Shown here: positions 37,024 to 57,871 of the stretch, piece after piece
How the letters are laid out: every line of letters begins with the position of its first letter
Numbering within the stretch: position 1 is the first letter of the stretch
From: Ensifer adhaerens
GTDB lineage: Bacteria; Pseudomonadota; Alphaproteobacteria; Rhizobiales; Rhizobiaceae
Direction: 5' to 3'
DNA: 64,000 bases
Assembly (NCBI GenBank): GCA_900215285.1
Contig: OCMG01000003.1
Location: forward strand, 776,001 to 840,000
The notes under the pieces: generated by a model
What the model saw: only the letters and a program-made list of their open reading frames with translations
Databases searched by the model: none
Told to the model about the DNA's origin: nothing
Translations under genes and position numbers: made by a program

Positions 37024-38841
37024 TCACGATGCGACCATCTTAAGGCCCTCGTCGGCGAGAATACGCTGACCGCTGACATCCCAATGCTCGATATGCTTGT
37101 AGATGATGACTTTCTGCTTCAACAGACCGCTATGGGTCCGGCAGAAATCTTCCAGCTTGTCGCGCTCGGCGATCAGTTCCACACACATGGTGAGTTCCGG
37201 GTTGGGCATTTCGAAGCCCTCATCCTGAACCTTGCCATGGTTCGAGTAGCCGAAATGCGTGTGATGGGCGATGGCGTTCATGATGCCGTGAGCCTTGGCC
37301 TGCATGACAAGCTCCCGGTAAAGCGGCTTGGCAGAGAACCATGAGCCCTTGCCCGGCGTCTTCTCGCGCGGTTTCATGTAAATGCGGACCATGCCGATTT
37401 CGCGCGAGGAAAGCAGGGTTTGCGTCATGGTTTGAGACCTTTCGAGTGTGTTGACGGAAGAGGTGACGGCGCTGAGGCGAATGCTTCCGATGAAGTCGCC
37501 CAGCCCCGGGCCCTTGATGTCGCGCACATGCCGGAGCGCGATATCAGGCGGGATGTCATTGGCGGCGGCCGATTTGGGGACGCCGATGCGCTGCGACAGG
37601 TAGATGCCGGAATGCCCGCTGAAGAGATAGGCGACGAAGCAGGCAACGGCGATGTAGACGGAATGCGTCGCGCCGAAGAGTTCGATGCCCATGATCATGC
37701 AGGCAAGCGGCGTGTTGGTCGCGCCTGCAAAGACGGCGACGAAGCCAAGACCCGCCATCAGGTCCGGTGGCGCGCCGAGAACGCCCGCCAGAGCGCTGCC
37801 GAGTGCCGCCCCAATGAAAAAGAGCGGGGTGACCTCGCCTCCCTTGAAGCCTGCGCTCAAGGTGATGATGGTGAAAAGCCCCTTCCACGCCCAACTCCAA
37901 TAGTCGATATGATCCGGGCGGAAGAAACTGAGGATCGTCACGTCGTTCGGGTTGGGGGACCATACGCCGAGGCCGAGATATTCCCGGGTTCCAAGCGCAT
38001 AGGTCAGTCCAATCAATATGACGCTCGCAAGGACAGGCCGAAGCGGGGCATAGGAAAGGATTGCCTTGTATCCGGCCGAGGCAAGATGCGAGAGTTCGGC
38101 GAACAGGTGGGCGGCCACACCGAAAGCAACACCTGCGATTGCGACCTTGACCATCAGCAATGCATCAAGATGAAATCCGACGCCCTCTCCAGCCCCGCCG
38201 AGATAGGAAATCGGATAGTGAACGTGGCTGATCCCCCAGGCGTGGCACGTCCAGTCCGCTATAACAGCGGCCAGAAGCGCAGGCAGCAGCGCCTCGTATT
38301 GCATACGGCCGATCGTCAGAACTTCGAGCGCAAACACGGCGCCCGCAATGGGCGTGCCGAAGACAGCCCCGAAGCCCGCCGCAATCCCCGCCATGAGGAG
38401 AATGCGGGTGTCTGCCGGCGTCAGCTTGAACAGCTTCCCGAAAGCGCTCGCAAGGCTGCCGCCAAGTTGCACGGCTGTCCCCTCCCGTCCGGCTGAGCCG
38501 CCAACGAGATGCGTGAGGACCGTGGTGATGACAATGAACGGGGCCATGCGGAGCGGGACGCCGCCGCCCGGTTCGTGGATCTGGTCGACGATCAGATTAT
38601 TGCCACCCTCGGCGGACTTGCCGAAGCGGCCATAAGCCCAGACCATGGCAAAACCAGCGATCGGCATGCAGAAGATCAGCCAGGGAAAGGTGAAACGCAG
38701 TTCCGTTGCCCGATCAAGGCTCCAGAGAAACAGGGCGACAAGCGACCCCACGACAGCCGCCATCGGAACGACGACGCCCACCCATTTCACAAGGCTCCGG
38801 GCCTGTTGAAGACGAAGGCCAAACAAGGATTCGGGCGTCAT
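37024..38841 (-). CDS. CLC-type anion transporter (fluoride-specific EriC/CLC-F-like) fused to DUF190 domain
   Basis: Predicted 605-residue membrane protein. Residues about 20-430 are a CLC channel/antiporter with some ten helices. Motif [18 protein letters not shown] contains the gating-type Glu120, and the preceding [15 protein letters not shown] segment resembles bacterial fluoride-exporting CLC-F proteins rather than chloride CLCs. Residues about 484-585 ([31 protein letters not shown], then [16 protein letters not shown]) form a DUF190 domain, a PII-like fold usually encoded as a separate gene next to fluoride exporters. A fluoride riboswitch lies in its leader. The ribosome site before ATG 38841 (GGAGCG) is weak and rather distant. 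Role: fluoride efflux (inference from riboswitch and family). Confidence 0.88.
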
Positions 38842-38900
38842 GCGAAAGACGCTCCGTCAAGGGTCGAATGTGAGGAAAAGGCAGGAACATTTCTGGACAC

Positions 38901-38939
38901 GACTCTACTCCTTCGCGTGGTTCGCGTTGAGTAGGAGTC
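38901..38939 (-). promoter_or_regulatory. Expression-platform hairpin of fluoride riboswitch
   Basis: On the minus strand GACT/AGTC, CTACTC/GAGTAG and CGCG/CGCG can stack into a long hairpin around loop AACCA. Its left arm re-uses the aptamer's conserved CTCCTAC end, so aptamer and hairpin exclude each other. It is 60 bases before the start codon and no T run follows directly, so the output mode is unclear. Confidence 0.6.
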
Positions 38940-38998
38940 ATCAGCTTCGTCAAGGAAGCGGTTCGGCTTGATGCCCGGCAGAATCCATTACCGTACCT
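38931..38998 (-). promoter_or_regulatory. Fluoride riboswitch (crcB motif) aptamer
   Basis: Read on the minus strand, the leader contains CGGTAATGGATTCTGCCG (first stem-loop with the conserved ATGG), then AACC, then the stem GCTTC/GAAGC with loop CTTGAC, then TGATGACTCCTAC. This order and the AACCGC...CTGATGACTCCTAC strings match the crcB RNA consensus. A small GGC/GCC insert (GGCATCAAGCC) lies between the two main elements. It directly precedes a CLC-F-like gene, a known target class. Basis: consensus recalled, structure drawn by eye. Confidence 0.85.
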
Positions 38999-39000
38999 CG

Positions 39001-39030
39001 CCTATAATTGACGAACTGCACTGCTGTCAA
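39001..39030 (-). promoter_or_regulatory. Sigma-70-type promoter for riboswitch-CLC transcript
   Basis: On the minus strand TTGACA (39030-39025) and TATAGG (39006-39001) are 18 bases apart. Predicted start about 38994, at the first nucleotides of the aptamer. Confidence 0.6.
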
Positions 39031-39117
39031 TCATGGGACGGAGCGGATCTTTTCCGGCTGACCAGCAAGGGCCCTGCCTGCGAGGTTCATCGGCATGGGT
39101 ATGGGGTGGCTGGCCGA

Positions 39118-39367
39118 CCGCGCTTTCCGATGCGATCACGCCGATCAACGATCCGAAGTCGACGCGTGTTGAAAAGCTGGTGGCCCTTCGTCTCGCCTTT
39201 TTGCCAAGGGCAACGATCCTAGTGCATGGCTGTACGGCTGGCATGCGGACGTCACGAAAAGCCAGCGGGCGGCCGGCAAGTTGACCGACCGTAAGGACTG
39301 GTGGGCTGGTGGCACCGCGCCGATGCTCGATTTGCAGGCGGGAAACGTGAAGAATCGAGATGACTGA
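39118..39367 (+). pseudogene. Degenerate gene fragment, unidentified
   Basis: Two adjoining frames read like one protein broken by a single-base shift near 39200. The first gives SDAITPINDPKSTRVEKLVA and on to LRLAFLP; the second continues with NDPSAWLYGWHADVTKSQ, then AAGKLTDRKDWWAGG, then MLDLQAGNVKNRDD before a stop at 39365-39367. Amino-acid composition is protein-like in both and the join is natural (LPKGNDPS). No start codon with a ribosome site was found and I do not recognise the family. Confidence 0.4.
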
Positions 39368-54893: not shown

Positions 54894-54913
54894 CCTTGTC
54901 ATCAGAGTTTGGA

Positions 54914-55025
54914 CGCTAGGGTTCCGGCACCTTGTTGGGTGCGGCTGGTCCGAGAGCATCCACCGGCGTGGGGAGACATCCCGCCGGGTGCACGGCGGGA
55001 CAAAAGCCCGGGAGACCTCGTTAGC
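54914..55025 (+). promoter_or_regulatory. Guanidine-I riboswitch (ykkC/yxkD class)
   Basis: The leader carries the conserved strings CTAGGGTTCCGG, GGTCCGAGAG, then a GC-rich stem, CACGG, and GGACAAAAGCCCGGGAGACC in the order of the ykkC guanidine-I aptamer. The 5' GCTA and 3' TAGC ends pair as P1. A terminator follows immediately, sharing its neighbourhood with the 3' strand of P1. Ligand: free guanidinium. Basis: consensus recognised by eye, and the downstream genes are known targets. Confidence 0.93.
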
Positions 55026-57051: not shown

Positions 57052-57833
57052 GCGCCATCACCATCGACAAGGTCTGGAAGGAATATGGCGACCAGATCGT
57101 TCTGGAAGACATTTCCATCGAGATCGAAGACCGCGCATTCGTCGCGCTTGTCGGTCCGTCCGGCTGCGGCAAGACCACGTTTCTGCGCATGCTGCTCGGA
57201 CAGGAGCAGGCCACGCGCGGCACGATCCTTCTGGACAGCACGCCGCTGCCGCCGGAGCCGGGCCCGGATCGCGGCGTCGTCTTCCAGCGCTATTCGGTGT
57301 TTCCGCATCTGACCGTGCTCGGCAATGTGCTGATCGGCAAGGAGATGACGGTCGCGCGCTATTCCGGCCGGCTGTTCGGGGCTGCTCGCAAGGCGGCGAT
57401 CGAGGAGGCCAGAGCGCTGATTGCCGAAGTCGGCCTTTCGCATGCACTCGACAAATATCCCGCCCAGCTGTCCGGCGGCATGCAGCAGCGGCTGGCGTTG
57501 GCCCAGGCGCTGATCATGAAGCCGAAAGTGCTGCTGCTGGACGAACCCTTCGGGGCGCTCGATCCGGGCATCCGCGCCGAAATCCATACGCTGATGAAAC
57601 GGCTCTGGCATGAAAACCCGATGACGGTTGTGATGGTCACGCATGACATGCGCGAGGCCTTCACGCTCGCCACCCGCGTCGTCGCTTTCGAGCGGTTGCG
57701 CGATCGGCCCGAGGAAAAACTGCGCTACGGCGCAACCATCAGCCGCGACATTCCGATCTGGCCGCCGCGCCGGGCCGGAGAGCCATCTCTCATTCGACCA
57801 GACCGGGACGGCCCGGTTCAAAAAGGTCAATAG
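57048..57833 (+). CDS. ABC transporter ATP-binding protein (SsuB/TauB type)
   Basis: Predicted 261-residue ATPase with Walker A GPSGCGKTT near residue 37, the Q-loop in VFQRYSVFPHLTVLGN, the signature LSGGMQQRLALAQAL and Walker B VLLLDEPFGALDPGIRAE. About 25 residues near 105-125 (EMTVARYSGRLFGAARKAA) form an insertion in the helical domain compared with SsuB. It is the last gene of the transporter module; the DUF1989 gene begins 38 bases later. Confidence 0.92.
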   Translation: MSAITIDKVWKEYGDQIVLEDISIEIEDRAFVALVGPSGCGKTTFLRMLLGQEQATRGTILLDSTPLPPEPGPDRGVVFQRYSVFPHLTVLGNVLIGKEMTVARYSGRLFGAARKAAIEEARALIAEVGLSHALDKYPAQLSGGMQQRLALAQALIMKPKVLLLDEPFGALDPGIRAEIHTLMKRLWHENPMTVVMVTHDMREAFTLATRVVAFERLRDRPEEKLRYGATISRDIPIWPPRRAGEPSLIRPDRDGPVQKGQ

Positions 57834-57871
57834 CCGGGACGACCCGGCCTAACTTGATGAGGAGTGCGACC

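Follow-up and report, generated by a model that had tools for sequence, protein, structure and literature searches.

Fluoride riboswitches of the crcB motif (RF01734) precede fluoride exporters, and the re-reading of EriC/CLC genes behind such a riboswitch as fluoride exporters is established, according to the available portion of PMC7266159, which cites Baker 2012 and Stockbridge 2012. In the accessible sections of a survey of 1901 fluoride riboswitch sequences (PMC13273304), terminator-type platforms were modelled in which the pseudoknot strand is exchanged into a hairpin (their P4); the survey covers platforms of that type, and the terms 'CLC' and 'Shine-Dalgarno' have no occurrences in its main text. 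Control through a short upstream ORF has been described for riboswitches of other ligands. In the M. tuberculosis B12 riboswitch-uPPE2-ppe2 system, as presented in the available part of PMC11260477, the AUGA overlap of a short ORF passes translation to the downstream gene by termination-reinitiation, and the M. tuberculosis Mg2+ Mbox is, by the title of PMC12810186, a translational platform that targets a small ORF, itself conserved, upstream of the gene.

The locus described here lies on the minus strand of the window, i.e. the whole 64,000-nucleotide stretch of DNA that was analysed, and consists of a fluoride aptamer, a short leader ORF and clcF, which encodes a CLC-type protein. In common with the crcB motif it has helices P1 and P3, the AACC and GAUG elements, a 3' pseudoknot strand that also takes part in an anti-aptamer hairpin (the same strand exchange as in the PMC13273304 model) and a position ahead of a fluoride exporter, but it differs in having an extra helix (Px), one pseudoknot pair that is never paired and a hairpin associated with a start site instead of a terminator. 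With the riboswitch-controlled CLC-F antiporters, as cited in the available portion of PMC7266159, it shares the placement of an aptamer before an EriC/CLC exporter, whereas the C-terminal DUF190 fusion and the relay ORF are features of the present locus; given the established re-reading of such genes, the reassignment of this protein to fluoride export is not new. The resemblance in layout to uPPE2-ppe2 is the start of the upstream ORF behind the switching hairpin and the stop overlapping the gene start, seen in the window and in 50 of 72 further loci. Conversely, uPPE2-ppe2 is an OFF switch responding to B12 and described for one gene, whereas the present arrangement would be an ON switch and recurs in many genera of two phyla; the ligand likewise differs from that of the Mbox. 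Riboswitch-to-uORF relays are already in print for B12 and Mg2+ in mycobacteria, and no report of a fluoride relay was found in the open-licence literature searched, which did not include Baker 2012 and Stockbridge 2012; within that literature the proposed fluoride relay would be new.

The aptamer was compared with RF01734 and with a covariance model, R1, built from six leaders including that of the window, the training sequences of which include the start codon. Helix pairing and covariation were counted in 50 leaders aligned to R1; as this alignment is fitted to the structure, the pairing percentages below lean towards it, slid controls reaching at most 58% and at most 47%. The features of the aptamer and its promoter region are as follows.

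38925..39001, minus strand: fluoride (crcB) aptamer, RF01734, 44.2 bits against a cut-off of 34
39025..39030, minus strand: TTGACA, a -35-like box that would place the transcription start close to the first base of the aptamer
38977..38992, minus strand: helix P1 (GGUA/UGCC) with loop AUGGAUUC, 100% of cells paired in 50 sequences, both-side changes at 2 of 4 pairs
38965..38975, minus strand: extra helix Px (GGC/GCC), inserted before AACC, 100% of cells paired, both-side changes at 3 of 3 pairs
38944..38959, minus strand: helix P3 (GCUUC/GAAGC), 94.3% paired, both-side changes at 4 of 5 pairs
38982..38986, minus strand: 5' pseudoknot strand GGAUU, with U 38983 opposite C 38937 and unpaired
38934..38938, minus strand: ACUCC, the 3' strand of the pseudoknot, which is also used by the 5' arm of the anti-aptamer hairpin

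The RF01734 match in an Rfam cmscan is full length (1-64), with an E-value of 5.5e-9 for the 64 kb window and a score above the gathering score of 34. The elements that the first-pass annotation had read on the minus-strand leader, namely the ATGG loop, AACC, the 5-bp stem (GCTTC/GAAGC) and CTGATGACTCCTAC, are all present, and the covariance model match that it had proposed as a check was obtained. Alignment to RF01734 revealed a 10-nt insert ahead of AACC that is not in the Rfam consensus, and four of the five pseudoknot pairs between the P1 loop and the 3' strand can form in the window, the Rfam structure line being without pseudoknot pairs. A TTGACA-like -35 element (at most one mismatch), located 27-32 nt 5' of the aptamer, is kept in 70 of 70 leaders (the window plus 69 named loci, obtained from the 72 that have a leader by leaving out L087, L104 and L105), compared with 13% of shuffled upstream stretches. 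The promoter proposed in the same annotation thus has comparative support in its -35 box, but a strict sigma-70 scan of 38700-39200 returned no promoter. No intrinsic terminator was found in the same interval, and such a terminator was consequently rejected as the control element. The genome carries another fluoride riboswitch (L001, G000:C3:491057-491129), located before a Fluc/CrcB-like ORF and with normal pseudoknot pairing; the same cell thus has two fluoride switches that differ in subtype, one before clcF and one before Fluc.

The gene behind the leader has the following features.

37024..38841, minus strand: clcF, CLC-F-type fluoride/proton antiporter with a C-terminal DUF190, 605 aa, from its domains and PDB relatives
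37618..38655, minus strand: Voltage_CLC domain, residues 63-408 (PF00654, 227 bits)
37090..37338, minus strand: DUF190 domain, residues 502-584 (PF02641, 33.3 bits, cut-off 23.4)

The closest solved relatives of the protein are 6d0j, 6d0k and 6d0n, which are CLC-type fluoride/proton antiporters, with an E-value of 5.5e-54 for 6d0j compared with 7.7e-6 for the best other CLC, 1kpl. The methionine of the GMNLV motif in 6d0j, a position that is presumably connected with fluoride selectivity, faces asparagine in clcF (GNNLI). The gating glutamate E120 (GREG) and the inner glutamate E336 (GGEVTP) both align with glutamates of 6d0j which, by our own reading of the numbering, correspond to E118 and E318 in the abstract of PMC12035849. 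Since the Rfam match, the CLC-F-type relatives and the two aligned glutamates point the same way, the earlier reading of a fluoride riboswitch before a fluoride exporter, together with an overlapping hairpin, is supported. What goes beyond it is the leader ORF, by which the hairpin would become a gate on translation, the overlap between the stop of this ORF and the clcF start, a second hairpin covering that start, DUF190 and the aptamer subtype with its extra helix and unpaired pseudoknot position.

DUF190 was considered as a constant companion of clcF and rejected in that role: among the best 80 of 109 clcF loci it is fused in 24 and encoded in a separate adjoining or overlapping frame in nine, and 47 have no match in the fetched stretch. 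Sequence searches of the PDB with the domain gave weak matches only, to the hypothetical proteins TM0021 and PH1503 (E-values of 0.055 and 0.086, respectively). In the open-licence literature no paper was found that combines DUF190 with a fluoride riboswitch, and those combining DUF190 with fluoride are, by title, unrelated. At L052/L007/L008 and at L098 the CLC and DUF190 portions lie in different overlapping frames as opposed to one fused ORF, representing either split genes or a frameshift.

Between the aptamer and clcF, the following elements were identified.

38901..38939, minus strand: anti-aptamer hairpin P4 (gate 1), -16.9 kcal/mol, covering part of the leader-ORF ribosome site
38908..38913, minus strand: Shine-Dalgarno-like AAGGAG within the P4 3' arm, 7 nt ahead of GTG
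38838..38900, minus strand: leader (relay) ORF of 20 codons with a GTG start (38900), the TGA of which overlaps the clcF ATG (ATGA at 38841-38838)
38852..38855, minus strand: GGAG, Shine-Dalgarno-like by sequence, ahead of clcF
38832..38856, minus strand: second hairpin over the clcF Shine-Dalgarno sequence and start codon (gate 2), z of -2.7 in the window

The hairpin that had been placed at 38901-38939 in the first-pass annotation is exact, and does re-use the 3' pseudoknot strand of the aptamer; 94.4% of P4 cells are paired in the 50 aligned sequences, with both-side changes at four of ten pairs. The stem of the second hairpin in the window is formed between the clcF GGAG with the bases after it and the G of AUG with codons 2-4. 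Since P4 abuts the start codon, the stop of the leader ORF overlaps the clcF start and the peptide is not conserved (see below), fluoride most likely opens initiation on the relay ORF, and the locus as a whole is quite probably a fluoride ON riboswitch acting on translation by way of that ORF. Without fluoride, P4 would tie up the 3' pseudoknot strand and cover part of AAGGAG and the stretch up to the GTG, such that nothing would be translated, with the second hairpin also holding the clcF Shine-Dalgarno sequence and start codon and ribosome loading there being poor. With fluoride, the aptamer would claim the 3' pseudoknot strand and P4 would lose its lower half, allowing ribosomes to start at the GTG, read 20 codons and open the second hairpin en route, before terminating at the TGA, in the overlap with the clcF ATG, and re-initiating to make the antiporter. 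Sequence and comparison provide the aptamer, P4, the leader ORF and the geometry of its coupling, the downstream fluoride-antiporter relative and, in Rhizobiales, the second hairpin; given these features, the subtype would bind fluoride, the leader ORF would be translated, re-initiation would follow and control would run in the ON direction.

The effect of releasing the pseudoknot strand from P4 was examined by folding. When that strand is removed in the window, an upper hairpin of -9.8 kcal/mol still covers part of the Shine-Dalgarno sequence, the corresponding remainder in three Verrucomicrobia leaders amounting to just -0.3 to -1.4 kcal/mol. When the pseudoknot strands were blocked, which is a crude stand-in for the bound state, mean accessibility from the Shine-Dalgarno sequence to the start increased in 12 of 12 other leaders, by 0.04 to 0.32, while in the window it moved from 0.25 to 0.26 and that of the start codon fell from 0.31 to 0.03. 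Since accessibility is not raised in the window, the bound state in rhizobia may free start-adjacent bases rather than the whole Shine-Dalgarno sequence, or the simple model may be incomplete.

The first four clcF relatives found in the family (L021, L022, L023 and L032) have the same leader geometry as the window. In the named loci, which are the best 80 of 109 and were those fetched, R1 matches precede the clcF start in 72, including L104, where the match is cut by the contig end, and L105, where it stands before a second clcF copy; the window itself, a training sequence, scored 119.6 bits. No fluoride aptamer at the Rfam cut-off was found in the fetched stretch of the other eight (L054, L090, L097, L101, L103, L107, L108 and L112). 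Among these best 80 of 109, 65 of the 72 loci have a start codon directly abutting the hairpin (GTG in 52, ATG in 12 and TTG in one), and 50 of the 72 have a leader ORF of 14-30 codons with a stop overlapping the clcF start, the leader start being taken as the abutting codon or a start codon at most 9 nt away. A further 16 of the 72 have a start behind the hairpin that is in frame with clcF; in 14 of these it is clcF's own start, located behind a AAGGAGGA-like sequence (13 are titled sphingomonad and one, L104, is titled Arthrobacter), and in L084 and L092 the in-frame start gives an N-terminal extension of clcF. L087 was kept apart, having a plain aptamer and then terminator-like sequence, though it is tallied in frame elsewhere. 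Five of the 72 break the pattern: in L064 the leader frame runs past the clcF start, L115 has no start codon at the hairpin and an in-frame ATG 14 nt further on, and the remainder are L113, L114 and L116. The last three are Komagataeibacter loci in which GTG-TAG stands behind the hairpin, some 115 nt ahead of the point where the match to clcF begins, and this start-stop pair is either a minimal ORF or a decayed relay. At L106 and L109, in sphingomonads, two clcF copies lie about 2 kb apart, each with its own subtype leader.

Leader ORFs were found in Rhizobiales, Nitrospirillum, Azospirillum, a metagenome-assembled genome titled only Alphaproteobacteria (L043) and Verrucomicrobia (L057, L086 and L091). 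Clustering of 52 of them (the 50, the window and L064) at 80% spacer identity gave 29 clusters, and as these were chosen for an open leader frame, the openness of that frame is not evidence by itself; from shuffles, 15.5 of the 29 would be expected to have an open leader frame, and of the two remaining frames one is open in just 18 clusters and the other in just 15. With L064 set apart, spacers vary from 41 to 89 nt and the frame relation is kept throughout, related loci not being independent. Substitutions between close relatives number 186, 214 and 143 at codon positions 1, 2 and 3, respectively (46 non-independent pairs), indicating that it is the act of translation, as opposed to the peptide, that seems to be kept. 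A leader peptide with a conserved function of its own was rejected as the main idea, since the sequences diverge and all codon positions are substituted alike. Should the proposed reading be correct, the relay ORF would mean that riboswitch-to-uORF coupling is no longer confined to isolated cases in mycobacteria but is a conserved design of wide occurrence, of which natural variants (own start, relay, in-frame extension and start-stop) are available for testing translational coupling.

Folding around the gene start was compared between clusters also. The 40 nt centred on the clcF start fold better than shuffled sequence, with a mean z of -1.42 (p of 2e-5), in 23 Rhizobiales clusters, L043 included, with 14 of the 23 below -1, compared with values of 0.23, -0.44 and 0.14 for control stretches 45, 90 and 135 nt downstream in the same clusters. 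The second hairpin was not seen in five clusters from Verrucomicrobia or Azospirillales (mean z of 0.00). A ribosome finishing the leader ORF would open this hairpin, which fits translational coupling and argues against direct loading at clcF in Rhizobiales.

The leader also occurs before genes of the other exporter family. In one genus of the same family, R1 matches were obtained in 9 of 33 species, with ten leaders before Fluc genes; an eleventh match, L139 at 31 bits, is probably due to chance. The leader stop overlaps the Fluc start or lies within 15 nt of it in four of the ten (L130, L131, L132 and L136), three are in frame (L133, L137 and L138, the latter two of which look degenerate) and three are uncoupled (L134, L135 and L208, which is the same as L129). 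This mixed coupling, set against the clcF pattern, indicates a relay that is kept strictly at clcF and only loosely at Fluc genes.

The unpaired pseudoknot position and the extra helix recur together in a subtype of the aptamer. In the 50 aligned leaders, pair 4 of the pseudoknot, counted from the 5' side, is never formed (U.C in 30, U.U in 17 and A.C in three) and the other four pairs are invariant. A wider set comprised 140 distinct parsed aptamers, together with 12 unparsed ones of which two are of the subtype (L115, which by eye has the mismatch, and L137, by eye degenerate). Pair 4 is unpaired in 69 of the 140 (U.C in 45, U.U in 20, A.C in three and C.C in one), all with an insert of at least 7 nt, and paired in 71. 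The latter include all 58 aptamers whose insert is shorter than this, and the other 13, which came from the phylum search, have inserts of 7-48 nt; because these 13 pair normally, the Px insert was rejected as the cause of the mismatch. With the subtype defined by an R1 score of at least 34 bits, none of the 68 distinct subtype aptamers that were parsed forms pair 4, which is paired in 71 of the 72 other parsed ones, the normally paired aptamers examined having R1 scores of at most 31.4 bits. L198 (G791), before a clcF-like ORF, has the same mismatch (GGAUU/AUUCC) and a 27-nt insert, but falls outside the subtype as defined because its R1 score is only 14.9 bits; the mismatch may therefore reach beyond the subtype. 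An alignment-free test of Px found a stem of at least three pairs in 47 of 49 stretches, with a median P of 0.21 against shuffles; single stretches are too short to beat shuffles, so that Px rests on the both-side changes in the alignment.

The 3' base of pair 4 covaries with its partner in the apo hairpin (C-G in 30, U-A in 12, U-G in four and others in four), indicating that its variation tracks the OFF structure and not the pseudoknot. By a nearest-neighbour estimate, the mismatch costs the isolated pseudoknot helix about 4-6 kcal/mol. In the available part of PMC11077080, pseudoknot pairing is reported to affect switching by the fluoride riboswitch strongly and a weaker pair was tried at its position 3, which by our own alignment would correspond to pair 4; the word 'mismatch' is absent from the main text of that source. 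It is conceivable, and put forward here tentatively, that these aptamers form a distinct and old subclass of fluoride riboswitch common to Alphaproteobacteria and Verrucomicrobia, whose pseudoknot is held open at one position by selection (the facing bases vary between U.C, U.U, A.C and C.C and never form a pair). The balance would thereby shift towards OFF and the switch would open at high fluoride only, the extra helix would compensate when fluoride is bound, and output through the relay ORF would constitute a two-gate translational switch, with a set-point for clcF differing from that of the canonical Fluc switch of the same genome. A natural lineage in which one pseudoknot pair is kept broken would provide a ready test of set-point evolution.

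The same weakening of the pseudoknot helix could be taken to mean that the aptamer is a chance or degenerate match that no longer binds fluoride. This seems highly improbable, since the mismatch is kept in every subtype aptamer parsed, which argues against decay, and, at the loci of at least 34 bits that were read, P4 and the rest of the aptamer show compensatory changes that preserve them ahead of clcF or Fluc. Control at the level of transcription is another proposal: the apo fold would expose an untranslated leader to Rho, or P4 would pause the polymerase, with fluoride relieving either effect and changes in translation being secondary. Many crcB RNAs overlap terminators, according to the portion of PMC2864571 available, an untranslated leader is a natural Rho target, and the M. 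tuberculosis metE B12 switch likely combines both modes, as described in the accessible text of PMC11260477. Nevertheless, no intrinsic terminator was found in the interval 38700-39200, and termination does not need a conserved start codon right behind the hairpin, making such control quite improbable as the principal mode.

A plain translational riboswitch, in which P4 blocks loading on the leader, clcF starts from its own GGAG and the short ORF is a by-product of the purine-rich arm, would account for a GGAG positioned 10 nt ahead of the ATG, for an AAGGAG arm that is partly dictated by pairing with CTACTCC, and for the lack of coupling at three of the ten Fluc loci. It accounts less readily for a frame and stop-start overlap kept in 50 of 72 clcF loci across spacers of 41-89 nt, from Rhizobiales to Verrucomicrobia. 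In sphingomonads, moreover, the same position is the clcF start, and in Rhizobiales a hairpin conceals the start of clcF. This simpler arrangement is accordingly considered unlikely, and translation through the relay ORF, opened by fluoride, remains the preferred reading of the locus.

The leader is present in three of six genomes of the window's own genus, and genome searches gave few matches, in 3 of 385 (class-wide) and 7 of 397 (order-wide) genomes, some of them weak. In one genome of the same family (G131, contigs C17 and C13; L126, L127, L128 and L203-L207) there are ten fluoride riboswitch matches, nine of them within 30 kb and one below the cut-off, together with two cobalamin riboswitches within the same 40 kb. 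The neighbouring ORFs, read by eye, resemble enolase, MutS-like ATPases, subunits of a membrane hydrogenase or complex I and a universal stress protein, among others, and this riboswitch-rich region is apparently a fluoride-resistance island. The window itself contains two guanidine riboswitches on the plus strand, Guanidine-I at 54905-55016 (86.9 bits) and Guanidine-II at 57800-57847 (38.1 bits), located 2.8 kb apart and followed by ORFs that, judged from their translations, resemble an ABC transporter set, two urea-carboxylase-associated proteins and a carboxylase of 1178 aa.
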